Part shown: positions 14,519 through 24,949 of the stretch, piece after piece | Layout: each line of letters begins with the position of its first letter | Numbering within the stretch: the stretch's first letter is position 1 | Source: Planctomycetota bacterium | Lineage (GTDB): Bacteria > Planctomycetota > Phycisphaerae > WQYP01 | DNA: 43,553 bases | Assembly (NCBI GenBank): GCA_021808485.1 | Contig: JAKBBN010000021.1 | Span: 1 to 43,553 of the forward strand | Direction: 5' to 3' | Made by a program: the position numbers and the translations under genes | The notes under the pieces: model-generated | What the model was told of the DNA's origin: nothing | Databases searched by the model: none | What the model saw: only the letters and a program-made list of their open reading frames with translations

Positions 14519-15895
14519 TCAGCGCGCCGGCCGGTTCTTTTTCCGGCTTGCCGCCGGCGGCCCCTGCGGTCCATCGGTCTTTAAAGGAGCGGCAATAATT
14601 GCCTGAATATCGGCAAGACGGCCCAAGGCATCAGCCTGTACATCCAGAATGGCCGACCGGATTTTAACCCGGAGAGATTCTATCCGGATTATATTTTCGA
14701 TCCCCGCCTGCCCCTGCTGATAATTCGTACGCGCAATGGATTCCATAAATTTAAGCCGCGGCAACACAGCCCCGGAATATATCGCCAGCTGCCGACGATC
14801 CCGGCGCATCAACAGCAGGTCAATGATTAAGGAGGTGTCCAGATTAATCCGCTTGCCGCGCCATTGTGCATTGACCGCGCGCAGGTTCGCCTTCGCCTGA
14901 GCAATTGATGCATCAATGGCCTGATATTGGAAGATCGGCGCGACAAGTGAACCGGTCAGATTTTGTACGCTGCCATCCAAGGATGTGGAAATGCCAAGAT
15001 CAAAATTTGGAATAAACTGCATCCGCGCCCGACGAATGCTCAATTTTTCCGCTTTCTGCAGTTCCCGCAGACGGCGCAATTCCGGATTCCGCATCACGGC
15101 AAGCCGGAGTATCTGCCGGGCATGCAGTTGCGGCCATTTTATGGCCGGTAGCGACGTTGGAGGTTGAATTGGGGCATCGGCCGGCCGGTCTAACTGGGAA
15201 TTAAGCAGCGCCAGCCGACGCGGCACTTTTTGCCGCCGATCGGCGAGTTTCAATTGGAGGGCATCAAGCCGGTTTTTGTCAGCCAGCCAGTCGCCGACGG
15301 ATCCGCCCGTTCCGATGCCCGCGGACCGCTGACTCACCGCGATCCGGACGATCTGCAATTCGCGTTGTGTCAGGTGCAGGCGGACGGTGGCCTGAATGTA
15401 CCGGTACCACGCGTTGAGCACATTTCGGCGGACGGCGAAGCGCGCCAACTGAAACTGCCATTCCGCGGCCAAAGCGTTGCGATATGCGCGCCTGGCCTGC
15501 ACGGACATTTTCGACGGCCAGCGAATATCCGCACTGCCCATGTTGGAAGCGCCAAGCGTGGAATTGGCCAGCGATGCCGTGCCGTTCGTAAGCAGAGTGC
15601 CGGCATTTAACATGACGGTGGTGGGTTCGGTTCCCGCCTGCGGAATTTCTTCAATCGCGGACCGCCAATTCCAATAAGCCTGCTGGACCGCGGGGCTGTT
15701 ACGCAAGGCGTAGTTAATCAGGTCTCGCTGGCCCGGCGCTCGCGGCAATGGGCGAATCGTCCGTTCATTAAACGGCTTTTCATAAGGTTTGCCGGCGATG
15801 AGCGCAACCTTGCGAAGCTGCATTTCACCGGCCGGGTGCTGCGTACAGCCGGCCAGTATGGAAAACAACAACAAAGTGAATGTGAACCGTTTCAT
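14519..15895 (-). CDS. Outer-membrane efflux lipoprotein (CusC/TolC family)
   Basis: The protein starts MKRFTFTLLLFSILAGC with a lipobox LAGC at residues 14-17, so it is a lipid-anchored outer-membrane channel of the TolC/CusC type. Two alpha-helical repeats are seen, with the family pattern of long Arg/Gln/Ala-rich helices, and a C-terminal half with YQQGQAGIENIIRIESLRVKIRSAILD. It should form the exit duct of the tripartite metal pump made with the two genes upstream. Its ATG overlaps the cusA-type stop as ATGA (15892-15895), with GGAGG 7 bases upstream, which shows tight translational coupling and decides this start over an upstream one at 15937. The C-terminus is basic and short of the usual length by little. 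Confidence 0.9.
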   Translation of the reverse strand: MKRFTFTLLLFSILAGCTQHPAGEMQLRKVALIAGKPYEKPFNERTIRPLPRAPGQRDLINYALRNSPAVQQAYWNWRSAIEEIPQAGTEPTTVMLNAGTLLTNGTASLANSTLGASNMGSADIRWPSKMSVQARRAYRNALAAEWQFQLARFAVRRNVLNAWYRYIQATVRLHLTQRELQIVRIAVSQRSAGIGTGGSVGDWLADKNRLDALQLKLADRRQKVPRRLALLNSQLDRPADAPIQPPTSLPAIKWPQLHARQILRLAVMRNPELRRLRELQKAEKLSIRRARMQFIPNFDLGISTSLDGSVQNLTGSLVAPIFQYQAIDASIAQAKANLRAVNAQWRGKRINLDTSLIIDLLLMRRDRRQLAIYSGAVLPRLKFMESIARTNYQQGQAGIENIIRIESLRVKIRSAILDVQADALGRLADIQAIIAAPLKTDGPQGPPAASRKKNRPAR

Positions 15896-18800
15896 GATGA
15901 ACCTCCGACGGGCCGCCGCCGCCACCTGCGGGGCCAATGAATGCGGATTTTCGGCAGACCGAAAAGGCGCCAGCTCATGGCAACATAATAAAGAGCCGGC
16001 AGCACCAGCAGTTCAAGAATAAATGCCGTACCCAGGCCGCCGATCATCGGTGCGGCCAATCGCCGCATGACGGTAGCCCCCGCGCCATGTACCCACAAAA
16101 GCGGAGTCAGCCCGATGAGCGCAGCGCAGACCGTCATCGTCTGGGGACGAATGCGGCGTACCGCACCGGTCCGGACCGCTTCAAACAGTTCCCGCTTGTC
16201 GCGAAGGCGGTCGGCCGCCCGCGCTTCGGTAAAGCTCACATCCAGATAAAGCAGCAGCACCAGGCCCATTTCGGCACATAATCCGGCCAGGGCGATGATG
16301 CCCACCCAGACCGCCACGGACATGTGATAATGCAGAAAATACAACGCCCATATTGCGCCCACCAGGCCGAACGGCACGGAAAGCAGTACGCCAAACACCC
16401 GTGCGAGGCTGCCTGTTGCCACCAGCAAAAGTATGAAAATGGTCAGCAGTACCATTGGAACCGCCAGCAGCAACCGGGCGTTGGCCTGTTGTATCTGCCG
16501 GAATGTTCCGATCCATTGATATGTATATCCCGGGGGAACCGTCACGTGGGCGCGAATGGCGGCGTCGGCACGGTGGACATATCCCACTGTATCCCCCACG
16601 GTTGTGGTGATATTGATGTAGTTGACGGTCATCGCATCCTGACTGTCGATTTCCGGCGGGCCGGAACTGTAATGAATCCCCGCCACCATTCCCAGTGTGA
16701 CGAATTTTCCATCCGGCGCCAAAATGGGCAATTGCCGCAGTTCGGAAATGCTGGTGCGAAGATTACGGAAATACCGGACGTTGATGGGTAATCGCTTTAA
16801 TCCCTGCACCATTGTTCCAACAGGCGCACCGCCGATGGCGAGCGAGATAATCCGCTGCACGGCGGCCTGTGTAAGCCCATATCTTGCGGCACGCAGGCGA
16901 TGCACGTGAATATTCAGGTAATAGCCGCCCAATGGCTGATTGGCAATTGCGCTGCCGGTCCCCCTGATTCCCTGCAGGGTCTGGGCAATTCGGTTGGAAA
17001 GCTTACCCAATCTCTCCAAGTTTGATCCAAACACCCGGATGCCCAGCAACGTTTTGCTGCCGGTGTTGGCCATATTCACACGATTGGCGATCGGCATTGT
17101 CCAATAAGGGGCAAAACCCGGAATCTTTAGCGCCCGATTCAACCCCTCATGAAACCTGCCGTGATCGTCCGTCCAGCCATGCAAAAACTGATGCAGGGAA
17201 ATGTGCACCGTCCCCGGCCAAAGCGTGTGCCTGAACGGCCATTGGGTCCAATGCGGCCAGGAATCATAAAACCGGGGCACATGCACCATCGGCCAATCGG
17301 CGCGGCGCTTCAACCGGATGATGGTGTCGATCATGTTCAGCGGCGCCGAATCGGTGGCGGTATCCGCCCGGCCTACCTGTCCCCAGACGCTGGCGACCTC
17401 CGAAAAGCTTTTGATGATTTTATCACTCTGTTCAAGCACCGTTTTTGCCGATCCGATACTGATTCCCGGATATGTTGTGGGCATGTATTCCAGATCACCT
17501 TCATATAACGGCGGCGTGAACTCCGTTCCCAGCCGTCCCAGCGGCCAGAATACTGAAGCACATGCGGCAAGAACCAGGATGATCAGCGGCCATCGCAGAA
17601 GGATCGCGGCGTGAAATACCGGATCAAAGGCTTTTTGCAGCGCCAGCGCAATCCAGTTGTGCTGTTCATGAATGATTTTTTGCGGAATTACCAGGAGCGC
17701 GGCAATGACTATCCAACCGCCGCATAACCACAGGTGATACCGGGCCAGCAAGCCCGACTGACCGGCCAGTTCGTATATGGCCGCCGCCGGCAGCAATACA
17801 ATCGCCAATCCGCTGATCCATTGAAGCCAAGCGGGCCAGTTGCCCGGAAAGAAACGCGGGCTGATAAAATAAAGCATCAATACCGGAACAAGCGTGATCG
17901 ACAAAAGCGATGCGGATGCGATCGCAAATGTTTTGGTCAGGGCCAGCGGGCTGAACAACTTTCCGCTTTCACCGGGAAGCACAAAAATCGGCAGAAAACT
18001 GATGGTAATAATCAGCAGACTGAAAAACAGGCTGGGACCGACTTCCGCGGCGGCTTCAAGAATTAACCGGACACGCGGGGTGGGCGCTTCCCCATTTTTT
18101 TGCCGGATCTCATCCCGGTTCAGGTGTTGATGCGCGTTTTCAATCATGACAATCGCGGAATCCACCACCACGCCGATGGCGATTGCTATTCCGCTTAAGC
18201 TCATAATATTGGCGCTAATTTTCAGCCAGTAAAGAATGGCCAGGCTGATAATCATGCTGGATGGAATGACGGTGATCGCCACCAGACTGCTGCGGCCGTG
18301 GAGCAAAAACAGCAGGCAGATCACCGCCACCACCAGCATTTCCTCCGTGAGTGTGTCCGAAAGCGTGTTAATGGCCCGGTTGATCAGATTGGTGCGGTCA
18401 TAGCCCGTTTTGAACATCACCCCGGGCGGCAGGCTGGCCGCCAATATCGCGATTTTCTTTTTCACGGCCTGCACCACCCGGTACGTGTCGGCGCCATAAC
18501 GCACCACCACAATGCCGCCGACCGTCTCTCCGCGTCCATTCCAATCCAGGATGCCCTGCCGCTGTGCTCCTGCTTTTTGCACCGTCGCAACCTGCCGGAG
18601 CGTCACCGGCGTACCGTCCACGGCAGCCCCGACCGGGACGCTGCGGAGCTGCGCGAGATTTTTCAGATATCCCCGGCTCCGCACGATATATTCAAAACCA
18701 GCCCGGTCAATGACCGCGCCGCCGACATCATTATTTGAATCCCGGATCGCCTGAACAACCTGGTTTACGCCCAAATGGTATGCCCGCAGTCTGTTGGGAT

Positions 18801-19536
18801 TCAGCACCACCTGATATTCTTCCTGAAACCCTCCGATTCCCGCGACCTCTGACACGCCCGGCACGGCTTCCAACTGATAGCGTACAAACCAGTCCTGCAA
18901 CGAACGCAGCCGCCCCAGGTTTATATGGCTGACTATAAGAGGCTTTCCGGAGATCGGTGATATTCCCGGATGGTCAAACGCCCGGACATGCACCAGGCGT
19001 TTGATCACCCCGGCCGGCGCGAGCCTGCGGCTGGAATACCATCGGTTTGTTTTCGGGTCATGCCAGACGCCTTTGGGATGGTGACGACAATACCAGCCCG
19101 GAAAGAGAATATACTGGTACGCCCATCCCGCCCCCGTGGCGTCCGGCCCCAATTGCGGATCCACCCGCGGGGGCAAAAGGGCCTTGGCATAACTGAGATA
19201 TTCCAGCACCCGGCTGCGTGCCCAGTACAAATTGGTTCCATTTTTGAATACCACTGTAATCAATGAATACTCAAACATGCTTGAACCACGGACCGCCTTG
19301 ACATCCGGCACGTGAATAAGCTGCGTTTCCAGCGGATACGTCACCTGTTTTTCCACGACGCCGGGCGACTGGCCGGGGTAATTGGTCAATACCAGCACCT
19401 GCACATCGGACAAATCCGGCACTGCATCCAGCTTGCTGTGAAACGCCGCCCAGCCGGTTACCGCCATCATCATCACACAAAGCAACAGCACCAGCACACG
19501 GTTTTCTATGGAAAGTTCAATAATTTTTTTTATCAT
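15892..19536 (-). CDS. Heavy-metal efflux RND transporter (CusA/CzcA family)
   Basis: This is the inner-membrane proton-driven pump of a metal efflux system. It opens with MIKKIIELSIENRVLV and LDAVPDLSDVQV, typical of HME-RND proteins. It has GPDATGAGWAYQYILF (about 131-146), RSLQDWFVRYQLEAVPGV (about 211-228) and a TM4 motif GIAIAIGVVVDSAIVMIEN with the charged residues of the proton relay. The porter segment IANRVNMANTGSKTLLGIRVFG resembles the Met-containing stretch of copper/silver pumps, so monovalent Cu/Ag is the likeliest substrate (inference). At 1214 residues it is some 160 longer than usual; one insert of about 45 residues lies near 147-200 and is rich in His, Trp and Tyr, another near the WPMVHVPRFYDSW region. 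The start ATG 19536 follows the adaptor gene by 39 bases. Confidence 0.95.
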   Translation of the reverse strand: MIKKIIELSIENRVLVLLLCVMMMAVTGWAAFHSKLDAVPDLSDVQVLVLTNYPGQSPGVVEKQVTYPLETQLIHVPDVKAVRGSSMFEYSLITVVFKNGTNLYWARSRVLEYLSYAKALLPPRVDPQLGPDATGAGWAYQYILFPGWYCRHHPKGVWHDPKTNRWYSSRRLAPAGVIKRLVHVRAFDHPGISPISGKPLIVSHINLGRLRSLQDWFVRYQLEAVPGVSEVAGIGGFQEEYQVVLNPNRLRAYHLGVNQVVQAIRDSNNDVGGAVIDRAGFEYIVRSRGYLKNLAQLRSVPVGAAVDGTPVTLRQVATVQKAGAQRQGILDWNGRGETVGGIVVVRYGADTYRVVQAVKKKIAILAASLPPGVMFKTGYDRTNLINRAINTLSDTLTEEMLVVAVICLLFLLHGRSSLVAITVIPSSMIISLAILYWLKISANIMSLSGIAIAIGVVVDSAIVMIENAHQHLNRDEIRQKNGEAPTPRVRLILEAAAEVGPSLFFSLLIITISFLPIFVLPGESGKLFSPLALTKTFAIASASLLSITLVPVLMLYFISPRFFPGNWPAWLQWISGLAIVLLPAAAIYELAGQSGLLARYHLWLCGGWIVIAALLVIPQKIIHEQHNWIALALQKAFDPVFHAAILLRWPLIILVLAACASVFWPLGRLGTEFTPPLYEGDLEYMPTTYPGISIGSAKTVLEQSDKIIKSFSEVASVWGQVGRADTATDSAPLNMIDTIIRLKRRADWPMVHVPRFYDSWPHWTQWPFRHTLWPGTVHISLHQFLHGWTDDHGRFHEGLNRALKIPGFAPYWTMPIANRVNMANTGSKTLLGIRVFGSNLERLGKLSNRIAQTLQGIRGTGSAIANQPLGGYYLNIHVHRLRAARYGLTQAAVQRIISLAIGGAPVGTMVQGLKRLPINVRYFRNLRTSISELRQLPILAPDGKFVTLGMVAGIHYSSGPPEIDSQDAMTVNYINITTTVGDTVGYVHRADAAIRAHVTVPPGYTYQWIGTFRQIQQANARLLLAVPMVLLTIFILLLVATGSLARVFGVLLSVPFGLVGAIWALYFLHYHMSVAVWVGIIALAGLCAEMGLVLLLYLDVSFTEARAADRLRDKRELFEAVRTGAVRRIRPQTMTVCAALIGLTPLLWVHGAGATVMRRLAAPMIGGLGTAFILELLVLPALYYVAMSWRLFGLPKIRIHWPRRWRRRPVGGSS

Positions 19537-19575: not shown

Positions 19576-20943
19576 TTATTTTTTGCCCGCATGGATGGTA
19601 TTTGTTGCGGTTGTCTTCGCGGCCAGATATCGGTTTTTAATCTGATTCAACTGTGATTCCACATCAATCATAAATTGACCGCTGGTCACGACCTTCTGGC
19701 CGGGGCGAACGCCGGAAATCACCTGCACCACGCGCCGCAATCCCGTACCGCCGGTAAAGCCGGTACGAACGGCTACGGGATCAAAGCGGCCCTTTGACGA
19801 TTCCACAAACACGATCTCACCGGTGCCGGTGTTGATCACCGCCCGGCGCGGAATCAGGATAGCGCGGGCAATGGGCCGGGTTTGAATGTCGGCCAGACTG
19901 TACATTCCCGGCCGCAGTTTTCCGTCGGCGTTCGGCAATTCAATGCGTACCGCCGTGGTATGATTTTGCCGGTTTTCGAAGGCATCGACAAAAATGACCT
20001 TGCCGTTAAACGTCCGGCCGGGGAATGCGGCGAACTTCGCGGTGACCCGCTGTCCCATATGTATCCAGGGAAGCTGACTCTCAAAGACTTCGCTGTCGAG
20101 CCACAAAGCGGTCAGGCTGTCCACACCCATGGCGGTGATACCGGCGTTGATGCGCGATCTCTGCCGGACCTTGATGTCCCGTAGATAGCCGCTGGCGGGA
20201 CTGTAAAACGTAACATATTTCAGCGGCTGAAGGCTGGATTCCACCTGCTTTATCTGGCCGCCGCTTACACCCAGATATGTCAGGCGCAATGCGGCCGCCC
20301 GAACCAGTTCGCGGCTGTCCTTTATCACCGCCGGTCGGCCGGAAGATTCCGCAACCGAATTCATGTCTTTTTTTGCGGCAATTAACTGATATTCGGCGGC
20401 GACAATTTGCCGGCTGTAAAGTGTAAATAATCTTTGGCCTTTTTTTACCGCTGTCCCGTTGGTTGTCGCATACAATTTGCCGATCCAGCCGCCGACCCGC
20501 AACGTAACGCTGTAGCGATCCGGGGTGGGAACCCGCAAATAGCCGACCGCCCGGACCGGATGAATCAACGGTCCGGTCTTCACCGTTGACGTATTTATTC
20601 CCATGTCCTGGGTCATGACCGGGTCAACGTGCACCTCGCCGGCGGGCCGCCGTGACTTCTTCGTCGGGGCGTATACCGGAATCAGCGCCATTCCCATGGA
20701 GCTGACGCCCGGCTTGGGGGAAATGGAGGATACCCCCACCATCGGATCCCACCAGTAAAGAATCTTGCGTTTCACCGGGGCCTTTGCGGGCGCCGAGGCC
20801 GCCGCGACGGTTGCGGGTTTGCCGGGCGCCATACCGCCGCCGCCGTTGGAACGGTGCGTGGATTGAACGACAACTGCCAGCAGAATACCGACGAACACAC
20901 CGGCGATGCCGACGAGTACGGTTGCCAAAAATCGAATTCGCAT
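19576..20943 (-). CDS. RND efflux periplasmic adaptor (CusB family)
   Basis: The 455-residue protein is the membrane-fusion subunit of the metal pump. An N-terminal anchor (residues 3-26) is followed by a short metal-binding-type domain with KILYWWDPM and GVSSMGMALIPVY, the pattern known from CusB-like adaptors in which Met and aromatic residues contact the metal. Then come the barrel-sandwich half VGGWIGKLYATTNGTAVKKGQ, a helical hairpin, the second half with SGYLRDIKVRQRSRINAG, and the membrane-proximal domain with GVRPGQKVVTSGQFMIDVES. I chose ATG 20943 (MRIRFLA); a TTG 12 bases upstream is less likely. It is followed by the pump gene. An inverted repeat lies 28-51 bases upstream of the ATG. 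Confidence 0.93.
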   Translation of the reverse strand: MRIRFLATVLVGIAGVFVGILLAVVVQSTHRSNGGGGMAPGKPATVAAASAPAKAPVKRKILYWWDPMVGVSSISPKPGVSSMGMALIPVYAPTKKSRRPAGEVHVDPVMTQDMGINTSTVKTGPLIHPVRAVGYLRVPTPDRYSVTLRVGGWIGKLYATTNGTAVKKGQRLFTLYSRQIVAAEYQLIAAKKDMNSVAESSGRPAVIKDSRELVRAAALRLTYLGVSGGQIKQVESSLQPLKYVTFYSPASGYLRDIKVRQRSRINAGITAMGVDSLTALWLDSEVFESQLPWIHMGQRVTAKFAAFPGRTFNGKVIFVDAFENRQNHTTAVRIELPNADGKLRPGMYSLADIQTRPIARAILIPRRAVINTGTGEIVFVESSKGRFDPVAVRTGFTGGTGLRRVVQVISGVRPGQKVVTSGQFMIDVESQLNQIKNRYLAAKTTATNTIHAGKK

Positions 20944-20970
20944 AACATATCCCAAATATCGCCGCCGACG

Positions 20971-21065: not shown

Positions 21066-21572
21066 TTAAATTATAAGAATGGTGCGCCGGCTTTGCGGCG
21101 TGTCCCGGCGGAAATCCGGCGGATGACGGGCCGGAACGCCGGCCATCATCGGACATTGCCCCCCCGCCAAAAACGCCATCGCCTGCCGCAGGCGAGGAAT
21201 CCGGACGCACGGTATTGCCGGAAACACGGCCAGCTTATGCCGACCATGGTTGACCAACCGGCAATTGGGGCACGGGTGCGAGCCCGGACCGGCAAGGAGA
21301 CTGACTGTTTTAGCCGCGCAATTCATTGGCGGGGTGCACCGGCTGGTCGCCGCGCCGCACCGGCAACAAGGCATGGCCGCCATTCCGCCGGATGAGGCCA
21401 TCGGCATGCGCCGCATACCGTGGGGGGCCGACGGTCGACATTGCACCGGCAAAGGCCCCGGAGCGAACAATACTCCCACGCAAGCCATTATGACAAGAAA
21501 AAGCTTCAACAGCCGATTTCCTTTAAGTGAGGACTGCCCGCCTGAGTTGCAACGTCGGCGGGCGGCCTCCAT
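21066..21572 (-). CDS. Secreted Cys/Met/His-rich protein of the metal efflux cluster
   Basis: I do not recognise a named family with certainty. After a hydrophobic export segment (about residues 21-40, LLKLFLVIMACVGVLFAPG) the protein is rich in metal-type ligands: CRP, HGMRRMPM, GGMAAMPCCRC, MNC, HPCPNC, and later CPMM. The cysteine pairs (CCRC, CPNC) and Met clusters fit a periplasmic copper- or silver-binding role, and its place inside the efflux cluster supports this; both are inference. It begins 3 bases after the previous gene's stop, with no clear ribosome-binding site of its own, so it is probably translationally coupled. In-frame later starts exist near residues 22 and 29. Arg-rich C-terminus. 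Confidence 0.55.
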   Translation of the reverse strand: MEAARRRCNSGGQSSLKGNRLLKLFLVIMACVGVLFAPGPLPVQCRPSAPHGMRRMPMASSGGMAAMPCCRCGAATSRCTPPMNCAAKTVSLLAGPGSHPCPNCRLVNHGRHKLAVFPAIPCVRIPRLRQAMAFLAGGQCPMMAGVPARHPPDFRRDTPQSRRTILII

Positions 21573-21575
21573 GGA

Positions 21576-21992
21576 TTAATGATGCAGATTATCTTTCAAA
21601 TGGACCTTCATCCACATGTTACCCATACGCCACCAGATTTTTACAGGGAAGATTACCTTGTCTTTCACATCTTCCTTGCCGGTCACCTTAATTTCCACGC
21701 CCACATATTTGGCCAGCGGCCTGGAATTGGTGAGCAGTGTGTAGGCCTGACCGTTAATCATGATGCCCGCCGGCAGACCGCTGGCGAGGCATTTCTTACC
21801 GCAGGTTTTGCCATGCGCCCTGCCGGTCATGCCCATGGTGCTATAACATGCCATATCCAGCAACTCGCCTTTGGCGGTGATTTTCTTTAATGCCGACTTG
21901 CCGGCCATCGCGGCATGCACCGGTACTGCAGCTGCCATCAATAACGCCAGCCCAATTGCCGAACCACCTGCGAAATTTGAAAGCAGCTTCAT
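21576..21992 (-). CDS. Small secreted conserved protein of the metal efflux cluster
   Basis: The 138-residue protein has a signal peptide (MKLLSNFAGG then LALLMAAAVPVHA, cleavage near residue 28). The mature part has GELLDMACY, HGKTCGKKCLASGLPAGI and a beta-rich end with WWRMGNMWMKVHLKD and a HH C-terminus. The pattern C...H...C.KKC with a GLPAG turn occurs in small periplasmic proteins of unknown role that I recall from various bacteria; I cannot name one with certainty. It is the first gene of the efflux cluster and has a good ribosome-binding site AGGAG 6 bases before ATG 21992. Three cysteines, several Met and His suggest metal binding. Two candidate promoters lie upstream (22041-22069 and 22162-22191). 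Confidence 0.75.
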   Translation of the reverse strand: MKLLSNFAGGSAIGLALLMAAAVPVHAAMAGKSALKKITAKGELLDMACYSTMGMTGRAHGKTCGKKCLASGLPAGIMINGQAYTLLTNSRPLAKYVGVEIKVTGKEDVKDKVIFPVKIWWRMGNMWMKVHLKDNLHH

Positions 21993-22069: not shown

Positions 22070-22161
22070 AGTTGTAAAACTTTCTTCCATCAGGACCATA
22101 ATAGAGTATCCGCTTCGGCTATCCAAACCGCACCGGACATTCGGCTGCGGGAATATGTAAT

Positions 22162-22191
22162 TAAACGATTCGCACAACTGCAAAAGTTCCC
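22162..22191 (-). promoter_or_regulatory. Candidate ECF-sigma promoter of the metal efflux cluster
   Basis: On the minus strand GGAACT (22191-22186), 18 bases, then GTTTAA (22167-22162). The same layout occurs upstream of two other genes of the cluster (23561-23590 and 24920-24949). GGAAC is the usual -35 word of many ECF sigma factors. The spacer is longer than in the classic sigma-E promoter, so this reads as a cluster-specific signal. Confidence 0.55.
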
Positions 22192-22215
22192 GGAAATTAT
22201 TTGAATTGTGTTATT

Positions 22216-22243
22216 TTGACGTGGCCGCAAGAAATGATATTTT
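22216..22243 (+). promoter_or_regulatory. Possible promoter of M48 lipoprotein gene
   Basis: TTGACG (22216-22221) and TATTTT (22238-22243) lie 16 bases apart. Transcription would begin near 22250, giving a leader of about 150 bases that contains the motif at 22290-22345. The -10 word is weak. Confidence 0.4.
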
Positions 22244-22289
22244 ACCGCGGCGAATATTCCCCCCCCTTCTACAGCCTGAATTTGCGGCA

Positions 22290-22345
22290 CATTGCCGGTG
22301 AAAGCCCGCAAACTGAGCATGCCGACCCTTATCGACTGAATTAAT
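22290..22345 (+). other. Leader motif shared with the HU gene, copy A
   Basis: The segment starts TTGCCGGTGAAAGCCCGC, continues AA(N)CTGA and ends TGAATTAA after a variable part. The HU gene leader at 37894-37948 has the same blocks in the same order, with 17 of the first 18 bases identical. The first block can form a hairpin with loop TGAAAG. It lies 55-110 bases upstream of the M48 start. Function unknown; an RNA leader element is one reading. Confidence 0.45.
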
Positions 22346-22399
22346 CACAATTTTTTCCCGATACGCAAGAATGGCATGCTTTTTGAAGGATCAGAATGC

Positions 22400-23074
22400 A
22401 TGATAAAGACCTGGTCGGCCTGCGCCGCTTTGATATTGCTGTTACTAATGCTTGGCGGCTGCGCCGGCGGTTCGGGGAACGGAGGTTTTCCGGCGGTGGA
22501 AAGCCGCTGGTTAGTGCGGCACGGCGGCCTGATCAACGGCCCGCAAAAAGCTCGCGCACAACGGTTATGCAATCGCATATGCCGCGGCTGGATCAATACG
22601 CCGGTCCACGTCAGGATCGTGGACAGTCGACAATTGGGCGCATGGTCATGGTCGGATGGGGACGTATACCTGACACTTGGACTCACATCACATCTGAACA
22701 ATAAGGAATTGGCGGCGGCAATCGCCCATGAACTGGGGCACCTGATCAACAGTAAATCCGTCGTTTGCCCCTACGCATTGGGGTCTGCCCATGAACAATT
22801 GGGGATTGAATTTGCCGCGGACCTGACGGGAGCACGAGTTTTGGCGGCCCACGGCATCGCACCGCAAAATCTGGTCTCGGTTATACGCCTGCTATACCGG
22901 CGCAGTTCCAATGAATCACTTCGCAAATCACTGCAATCGCGAATTCATTTGCTTTTATCGGAGATAAAATCAGGACAGGTCAACAAGTGCCGGCGTAACA
23001 TTGCCCGAGCTCGCGATACCCGGGACCGGACTGTGCCAACGGCCACATCCAGCACTTGGGAAGCGAATTCATAG
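22400..23074 (+). CDS. M48-like zinc metalloprotease lipoprotein
   Basis: The protein has a signal peptide ending in a lipobox LGGC (residues 18-21), so it is lipid-anchored in the envelope. The zinc protease motif HELGH is at 110-114 and a likely third ligand Glu137 lies in IEFAADLTGARVL, as in M48 peptidases such as the BepA and LoiP types, which handle misfolded envelope proteins. At 224 residues it lacks a TPR tail. AAGGA lies 10 bases before ATG 22400, so I prefer this to an upstream start. Its last 43 codons (about 130 bases) overlap the 3' end of the convergent sigma gene. Its place suggests a role in envelope or metal stress. Confidence 0.82.
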   Translation: MIKTWSACAALILLLLMLGGCAGGSGNGGFPAVESRWLVRHGGLINGPQKARAQRLCNRICRGWINTPVHVRIVDSRQLGAWSWSDGDVYLTLGLTSHLNNKELAAAIAHELGHLINSKSVVCPYALGSAHEQLGIEFAADLTGARVLAAHGIAPQNLVSVIRLLYRRSSNESLRKSLQSRIHLLLSEIKSGQVNKCRRNIARARDTRDRTVPTATSSTWEANS

Positions 23075-23526
23075 CTCAGCTCGGTTACATCCACCAATAG
23101 CAGCGTCCAGCGCATGTCTTCAGGAAGCGCCTTAAGTGCGTCAATCACGACCTGGTCAGAAAAACCATCAAGCATCGCATCGGCATCGCGAATATCCATG
23201 TCATCCGCGGCACAATCCACATCCACCGGTTCATTCCCGGATTCACATAATTGGTCCAAACTGGTTTTGAACTGGTTGTGGGCCGCATTGGAGCGTATTT
23301 GATCCACCCAGGTATGCCGTAAAATTGCCATCAGCCACGCCAGCAAATGCCCCTCCGGCCCATCAAACTGGTGCAATGATCGCCAGGCTTTCACCAGCGT
23401 TTCGTGGGTTATTTCCTCCGCCTTGCCGGTATTGTGCGTCAACAATATCGCAGCGCGAAGTACGGTGGATCTTACCGGCCAAACCAGCCTGTAAAACCGA
23501 TCAGTATTATTAACCGGCTCGGTCAC
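22945..23526 (-). CDS. ECF-type RNA polymerase sigma factor
   Basis: The 193-residue protein has the two ECF domains. Region 2 shows AILLTHNTGKAEEITHETLVKAWRSL and LLAWLMAILRHTWVDQIRS; region 4 shows LPEDMRWTLLLVDVTELSYEFASQVLDVAVGTVRSRVSRARAMLRRHL (split here for reading: the helix-turn-helix lies at about residues 150-181). The start is GTG 23526 with a strong GGGAGGAG 7 bases upstream. A membrane protein resembling an anti-sigma factor is encoded upstream on the same strand (24171-24836), with a small lipoprotein gene on the other strand in between. Three shared promoter-like sites nearby are its likely targets (inference). The 3' end overlaps the M48 gene. Confidence 0.92.
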   Translation of the reverse strand: MTEPVNNTDRFYRLVWPVRSTVLRAAILLTHNTGKAEEITHETLVKAWRSLHQFDGPEGHLLAWLMAILRHTWVDQIRSNAAHNQFKTSLDQLCESGNEPVDVDCAADDMDIRDADAMLDGFSDQVVIDALKALPEDMRWTLLLVDVTELSYEFASQVLDVAVGTVRSRVSRARAMLRRHLLTCPDFISDKSK

Positions 23527-23560
23527 ACTGCACTCCTCCCTGATGCGGATTCACTGCCGT

Positions 23561-23590
23561 GGAACTGTTCCGGTTACTTGGATCGTCTAA
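23561..23590 (+). promoter_or_regulatory. Candidate ECF-sigma promoter of small lipoprotein
   Basis: GGAACT (23561-23566), 18 bases, then GTCTAA (23585-23590). The -35 word is half of a palindrome GGAAC-T-GTTCC (23561-23571), so a second -35-like word faces the sigma gene. Transcription would start near 23597. The leader holds a 6-bp hairpin CGGGCA-GCG-TGCCCG at 23614-23628. Confidence 0.55.
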
Positions 23591-23666
23591 TCTAAATAGA
23601 GGTCGCAGCATAACGGGCAGCGTGCCCGCCGCCGACGACCCAAGCTCCAATATGAGGAGATTCATC

Positions 23667-23912
23667 ATGTTTCGCTCGCAATGGCTTATCACCAAAGTCC
23701 TTCCAACTGCGTGTCTGGGCGCCGGTGTGGTGGTGTTTATTGGTGGTTGCGCTTCAGCACCGTCCACACCAAGCAGATATGGCCTGACTGGAACAAACAG
23801 TCCAACCGCATTTGTACCGCCGGCATCGACGATTGACAGCAAGGGCCACTACCATCCGGATTGGTATTTCCATGGTGCTCCACGTCAGGTATCCGCCGGC
23901 CAGGGACAATGA
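23667..23912 (+). CDS. Small lipoprotein, probable sigma target
   Basis: The 81-residue protein has an N-terminal signal and a lipobox IGGC at residues 25-28. The mature part is only about 53 residues, rich in Ser, Thr and Pro at first, then Gly, His and aromatic residues near the end (GHYHPDWYFHGAPR). I do not recognise a family. GAGGAG lies 8 bases before ATG 23667, which is better than an ATG 15 bases upstream. It is transcribed away from the sigma gene and has an ECF-type promoter. The His cluster might bind metal; that is only a suggestion. The 258 bases after it, up to the anti-sigma-like stop, hold no gene that I can see. Confidence 0.7.
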   Translation: MFRSQWLITKVLPTACLGAGVVVFIGGCASAPSTPSRYGLTGTNSPTAFVPPASTIDSKGHYHPDWYFHGAPRQVSAGQGQ

Positions 23913-24170
23913 GCGACCGCCTTGACCCTGTCGACCACAATAGCCTGACAAATCCGCCGCTCGCTTCCACAGTCATTGAAACGCTGGAGCGAGCGGACTT
24001 TTATTGCAGGCCGTAGCGGCGTTAAATTCGCCGGTCCGAAAATTTCTATTTCATTCTTTCTTACACCCATTTCTCAAATATCTACCGTCCTTGATTCAAC
24101 AAATCGCCAAACTATTCTACAAAAACAATCCGATCAGGTTCTACGCCGCGGAAGGAGATATTGACGTAAT

Positions 24171-24836
24171 TCAGTTGACTCCATGGTTGGTGGAGCGTAT
24201 CCGCCGGCCGATCACCAGCAACGCCCTGACACTTTGCGTCCCCATGATACAAATCCAATGGTGTCGCCCGGATTCTATGACCATGTTCAGTTTACCGGCT
24301 TTCCGGACAATAAATGACTGCCCGTGGAATACAATGTGTCGGCCGTCAGGAAATTCGAGCTTCCCGGTCGGCGCCACAACCACACCCACGGTCTGGTTGC
24401 CTTGCTTTACCAGCATACACGCCACCTTGTGATGATGAAGAGTTTGCATGCAGCAACCGCCCATTTTTCCACCTGATGCCGAACACATCAATTGCAATTG
24501 GTTCATTTGCGAATCCGCCAAACCGCGGGCCGAAGGAACGGAGAGCATTTGATTGTATATCTGCGACAAATCGGACACGGACGCCCGGGTGGTATGTGGG
24601 ACGAGAAGGGAAAATAAAACTACCGCCGAAACGGCAGTGGCGGCAATCAGGCCGGACACCGCGATCCGCCACGGCCGGATGAATGGGACATTTCGCGGAA
24701 TCCGGGCGCGTAACAGGTTATCGAGTCGGTGCGTATCAACCGGAAGCGTTGACAGTCGGCCCAATCGCCTAGATACAGCAATATCTTCCGGATGATCTCC
24801 GGCATTCACGTTGGAAGCATGAATATCATCAGCCAT
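24171..24836 (-). CDS. Anti-sigma-like membrane protein with Cys/His sensor domain
   Basis: The 221-residue protein has a cytoplasmic N-terminal part of about 55 residues, one membrane helix (57-79) and a periplasmic domain of about 140 residues. That layout and the nearby ECF sigma suggest an anti-sigma factor. The outer domain has Cys118, Cys128, Cys129, Cys140 and Cys196, a HHH at 134-136 and HHW at 192-194. The fold pattern (HKVACMLVKQGNQ, SFIVRKAGKLNMVIESGRHHWICIMG) resembles the periplasmic part of anti-sigma proteins. Because it sits beside a metal pump, direct sensing of copper or silver by these residues is plausible. I chose ATG 24836; a reading extending to 25115 is unlikely because the promoter-like site at 24920-24949 lies within it. 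No zinc-anti-sigma HxxxCxxC motif is seen. Confidence 0.65.
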   Translation of the reverse strand: MADDIHASNVNAGDHPEDIAVSRRLGRLSTLPVDTHRLDNLLRARIPRNVPFIRPWRIAVSGLIAATAVSAVVLFSLLVPHTTRASVSDLSQIYNQMLSVPSARGLADSQMNQLQLMCSASGGKMGGCCMQTLHHHKVACMLVKQGNQTVGVVVAPTGKLEFPDGRHIVFHGQSFIVRKAGKLNMVIESGRHHWICIMGTQSVRALLVIGRRIRSTNHGVN

Positions 24837-24919
24837 CAGATGTCCGCCCTGCCCAAAAGCACGTGTCAGAGAAACAACAACGTACGCATAAACCGTGGAT
24901 ATGCAGCCCTGACAAAGTA

Positions 24920-24949
24920 TATAACGGTACGCAATGCGAAAAAAGTTCC
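24920..24949 (-). promoter_or_regulatory. Candidate ECF-sigma promoter of anti-sigma-like gene
   Basis: On the minus strand GGAACT (24949-24944), 18 bases, then GTTATA (24925-24920). The start would lie near 24913 with a leader of about 77 bases. Together with the sites at 22162 and 23561 it forms a family of three with identical spacing. The rest of the 335-base gap 24837-25171 shows nothing clear. Confidence 0.55.

Follow-up and report, generated by a model that had tools for sequence, protein, structure and literature searches.

An ECF sigma factor and an anti-sigma-like membrane protein, encoded close to a Cus-type efflux cluster, probably form a self-limiting switch for copper(I)/silver efflux in the Planctomycetota DNA analysed here; we place this reading at roughly 0.75. 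The window, that is, the whole stretch of 43,553 nucleotides, had been given a preliminary description that named an ECF sigma gene, a Cus-type pump, a small lipoprotein and an anti-sigma-like gene, and each of these calls proved right. The features concerned are the following.

14519..15937, minus strand: CusC/TolC-type outer membrane channel (OEP)
15892..19536, minus strand: CusA/CzcA-family RND pump (TIGR00914, 977 bits) with the CusA Met triad
19576..20955, minus strand: CusB-type adaptor with N-terminal DPM...MxM metal-binding methionines
21066..21572, minus strand: Cys/Met-rich secreted protein, 168 aa; no family found in Pfam or NCBIfam
21576..21992, minus strand: secreted Cys-containing protein, 138 aa; first gene of the pump operon
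22161..22190, minus strand: candidate ECF promoter site 1, GGAACTTTT-N14-CGTTTAA, upstream of the Cys-protein/CusBAC operon
22400..23074, plus strand: M48-type lipoprotein metallopeptidase (Peptidase_M48), convergent with the sigma gene
22945..23526, minus strand: ECF sigma factor, 193 aa, GTG start (Sigma70_r2 and Sigma70_r4_2)
23561..23590, plus strand: candidate ECF promoter site 2, GGAACTGTT-N14-CGTCTAA, upstream of the small lipoprotein; the weakest of the three
23667..23912, plus strand: small lipoprotein, 81 aa, with a lipobox-like GGC; homologues in loci L056 and L065; no Pfam family
24171..24836, minus strand: anti-sigma-like membrane protein, 221 aa; predicted to have two short cytoplasmic helices, one TM helix and a periplasmic domain
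24920..24949, minus strand: candidate ECF promoter site 3, GGAACTTTT-N14-CGTTATA, upstream of the anti-sigma-like gene

Alignment of the pump to CusA revealed that all three methionines are kept, in YMP, APLxM and NRxxM contexts, at the positions of M573, M623 and M672, which are the metal-binding methionines of E. coli CusA. The adaptor likewise keeps the N-terminal DPM...MxM of E. coli CusB, so that the window shares with E. coli CusCBA both the pump family and the metal-binding methionines. Given that the CusA triad and the CusB N-terminal methionines are both kept, the system probably transports Cu(I)/Ag(I).

In one genus the genes for the inhibitor, the sigma factor, the Cys-protein and CusBAC follow one another on one strand, with the motif ahead of the Cys-protein gene, which is the order found in the window; compared with that genus, the window has two inserted genes on the other strand, those for the lipoprotein and the M48 peptidase. 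The sigma and M48 peptidase genes overlap at their 3' ends by ~130 bases (22945-23074), and the matrix scan described below found no regulon motif upstream of the M48 gene in the window. The 138-aa protein is kept beside the pump in one genus, has relatives in 25 of 61 genomes and belongs to no Pfam or NCBIfam family. It contains a conserved MACY...GKTCGKKCLASGLPAGI stretch, and a second copy lies elsewhere in the same genome (G000:C63:2718-3068).

Exactly three matches to the pattern GGAACT-N18-GTNNNA are present in the window, where 0.18 are expected by chance, and none of 100 shuffled windows reached three. All three sites are intergenic, lie within 2.8 kb and are each oriented toward a gene start. 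The preliminary description had reported them as sites of identical spacing; they are indeed present with the same spacing in the window, except that the first lies one base away, at 22161-22190 instead of 22162-22191, whereas in relatives GGAACTTTT and CGTT are separated by either 13 or 14 bases. The sites can be restated as GGAAC-N18-CGT[T/C]. Their spacer had also been considered unusually long, a view that we abandon because such a spacer is ordinary for ECF promoters of the SigE/SigH type, whose published consensus reads GGAAC-N17-18-cGTT (PMC10012870). The window sites show the features of ECF-type promoters, namely a GGAAC -35 element, a CGT(T/C) -10 element, ordinary spacing and conservation at orthologous loci.

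A genome-wide search for GGAACT-N18-GTNNNA, proposed as a check together with the pattern itself, went against it: 18 matches were found in the whole genome and 21 with the reversed control. As this is background frequency, the loose pattern by itself defines no regulon, and we rejected it as a genome-wide definition. The tighter pattern GGAACTNTT-N13/15-CGTY gave 7 genome matches and only 1 in the control, with 3 of the 7 in the window. No convincing regulated gene was found downstream of the remaining matches (contigs C30, C46, C86 and C105), and a wider regulon was rejected for that reason. Moreover, we built a position matrix from 20 sites at the relatives' loci, with the window excluded, and scanned all window positions on both strands. 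The three sites took ranks 1, 2 and 3 (28.3, 26.2 and 16.9 bits, the next position scoring 12.1); since an exact pattern served to select the training sites, many of them from close relatives, these bit scores are uncalibrated and it is the ranking that counts.

The refined motif in the relatives reads [GT]GAACTTTT-N13/14-CGTT, and GGAACTTTT-N13/14-CGTT recurs there before both the pump operon and the inhibitor gene. Of the family genomes, the window's own included, 23 have a CusB homologue; a perfect motif was found upstream of CusB in 16 of the 17 that bear the sigma gene (the motif-bearing ones spanning five genera) and in none of the 6 that lack it. This contrast is partly phylogenetic, because the six sigma-lacking genomes represent two other genera with a more distant CusB, and the 23 genomes are not 23 independent observations. 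The motif is thus conserved and linked to the sigma gene, so that comparison with homologous sigma loci, a further check suggested at the outset, came out in its favour. One genome (G003) has the sigma factor, the inhibitor and CusB but lacks a good motif.

The motif precedes the anti-sigma-like gene in most relatives, and in one genus this site reads TGAACTTTT or TGAACTTCT. In G010 the inhibitor gene and its own motif are located on a different contig from the sigma and pump genes, while in G007 the sigma, pump and inhibitor genes lie on three contigs, with the motif before the pump gene and before the inhibitor gene. One lipoprotein homologue, in L056, has a similar upstream site. A regulon-type motif was also observed in G007 (L052:2762-4528) before a gene near the sigma gene, for a 589-aa secreted protein of no significant Pfam family; the motif of this locus recurs at a contig end in G015 (L054). 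In G009 (L134:3437-3467), an alpha-galactosidase-like gene without obvious connection to metal has a perfect motif ~200 bases ahead of it.

Upstream of the sigma gene itself, no motif was found in five genomes checked. The orthologous sigma gene of other families has a site of GGAACC type with CGTT directly ahead of it (L142:7931 plus, L068:10210 minus, L038:2081 minus and L037:2070 minus), which suggests autoregulation there, a feature that the sigma gene of the window's family lacks.

The sigma factor consists of sigma2 and sigma4 domains only, with no extra domain, and is thus an ECF (group 4) factor; a Cys-rich C-terminal tail is absent from it. Orthologues that are 38-53% identical occur in 17 further genomes of the family. 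When its profile was compared with the PDB, SigH was the best match, with SigH and SigE closest and CnrH weaker. The SigH/SigR-SigE factors share with the window sigma this best PDB match as well as the GGAAC-N17-18-cGTT promoter; they differ in controlling actinobacterial stress regulons with no metal pump.

The 221-aa protein has relatives in 17 further genomes, usually adjoining the sigma gene. Its gene is present in 18 of 61 genomes, all of which have a recognisable sigma orthologue (a partial one in G009) except G021, a genome that is 76% complete. No Pfam or NCBIfam match was obtained for the protein, and a PDB search with its alignment profile gave no hit at E<=1. In length the cytoplasmic domain falls short of a classical anti-sigma domain, and the zinc-binding His-Cys-Cys motif of the class I anti-sigma factors (ZAS) is absent from the alignment, the zinc ligands being missing. 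The 18 sequences share three invariant cysteines, C128, C140 and C196, each of which lies in the predicted periplasmic domain, with Met and His nearby. This domain was modelled with pLDDT mostly above 90, and RseB chains were among its best PDB matches in Foldseek, with E ~0.006 and TM-scores near 0.3 (all E-values were above 0.001); at such values, the RseB likeness is a lead only.

Related sigma/anti-sigma pairs outside the family, found by a contig search with the sigma alignment, adjoin Cu-type P-ATPases or RND pumps. Using hhalign, the 221-aa protein proved homologous to the sigma-adjacent proteins of Phycisphaeraceae and other families (probability 99.8%, E 1e-29), one of which gave weak zf-HC2 and RsrA/ChrR-type anti-sigma matches, below curated cut-offs. 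We put at about even odds the idea that the 221-aa protein represents an undescribed family of one-protein anti-sigma/copper sensors, combining a shortened zinc-free cytoplasmic domain with an RseB-like periplasmic domain that would bind Cu(I)/Ag(I) through the three invariant cysteines, and constituting a copper analogue of CnrYX with a separate origin in Planctomycetota.

The conservation over five genera and the contrast between genomes with and without the sigma gene support the earlier proposal of an ECF sigma regulon made up mainly of the Cu/Ag efflux cluster and the Cys/His-rich membrane protein. As to how it may work, we infer that the motif is recognised by the sigma factor and that the membrane protein acts as its inhibitor until Cu(I)/Ag(I) relieves the inhibition. 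When no metal is present, the short cytoplasmic domain of the 221-aa protein would keep the sigma factor bound; Cu(I)/Ag(I) in excess in the periplasm would bind the cysteine-bearing, RseB-like periplasmic domain, and the sigma factor would be released by a shape change or by proteolysis. Sigma-loaded RNA polymerase would then start at the GGAAC-N18-CGTT promoters, and initiation at such promoters is strongly supported by conservation and co-occurrence at the sequence level. These promoters would drive the Cys-protein/CusBAC operon and the inhibitor gene itself, which would amount to negative feedback, and, less certainly, the small lipoprotein.

Other explanations of the sites were weighed against this one. 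That they are chance matches to a short degenerate word would agree with the background frequency of the original pattern in the genome, but it is contradicted already by conservation, and the shuffles, the matrix ranks, the tighter pattern and the contrast of 16/17 with 0/6 all speak against it; we give it next to no credence and, judging from sequence comparison, take the three window sites to be real. It is also quite improbable that another ECF sigma factor of the genome reads the motif and that the local one is a bystander: the pump motif tracks the presence of the local sigma's orthologue, and in Phycisphaeraceae and further families GGAAC-N17/18-CGTT immediately precedes the gene for the sigma orthologue, even if the genome holds five sigma matches and the motif is absent before the local sigma gene.

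A more serious alternative, which we still regard as unlikely, accepts the sites as promoters of the local sigma factor and places the signal elsewhere, in envelope or thiol stress perceived through the RseB-like domain, the pump being one output. The appearance of RseB among the best fold matches, the proximity of the sigma factor to SigH/SigE in the PDB and the possibility that the cysteines are redox-active are all consistent with it. The regulon is, however, very narrow and centred on a Cu/Ag pump, and the related sigma/anti-sigma pairs adjoin copper ATPases; both points speak against this alternative.

In bacteria, Cus pumps are as a rule described as controlled by two-component systems, that of E. 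coli by CusRS. In a search of titles and abstracts, with limited literature coverage, no paper was found on a Cus pump under an ECF sigma factor in Planctomycetota. The preliminary description had not recognised the system as described, which holds in part: in Cupriavidus metallidurans, CnrH/CnrYX controls cnrCBAT for Ni/Co with the same wiring, CnrH-dependent promoters lying before cnrY and cnrC (PMC9045368), whereas the Cu/Ag-type pump, the single protein in place of CnrY and CnrX and the Planctomycetota host set the window apart. Common to both are an ECF sigma factor and a membrane-bound inhibitor with periplasmic metal sensing, putative in the present case (PMC9045368, PMC4598750), as well as ECF promoters that precede the inhibitor gene and the HME-RND pump (PMC9045368). 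Compared with CnrYXH, the window has no separate CnrX-type periplasmic sensor, and its sigma factor is nearer SigH/SigE than CnrH.

CorE of Myxococcus xanthus, which a 2023 review (PMC10141476) picks out as the copper ECF sigma factor, controls copper genes and senses copper via its own Cys-rich C-terminal domain (PMC3107203). It has no known anti-sigma factor, whereas the window sigma lacks such a domain and has an anti-sigma-like partner. SigF/NrsF of Caulobacter is a Cu-induced pair whose targets are DUF692/DUF2282 and MsrPQ-like clusters, with no Cus pump (PMC8224329). It resembles the window in pairing a sigma factor with a membrane anti-sigma factor and in its copper response, which here is proposed; no NrsF-type family match was obtained for the 221-aa inhibitor in Pfam or NCBIfam.

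A conserved sigma/inhibitor pair with a tight promoter motif at a Cus pump amounts to a testable copper circuit, in a phylum where little experimental work on regulation exists. The 221-aa protein moreover offers a candidate sensor domain, whose three cysteines are directly testable.
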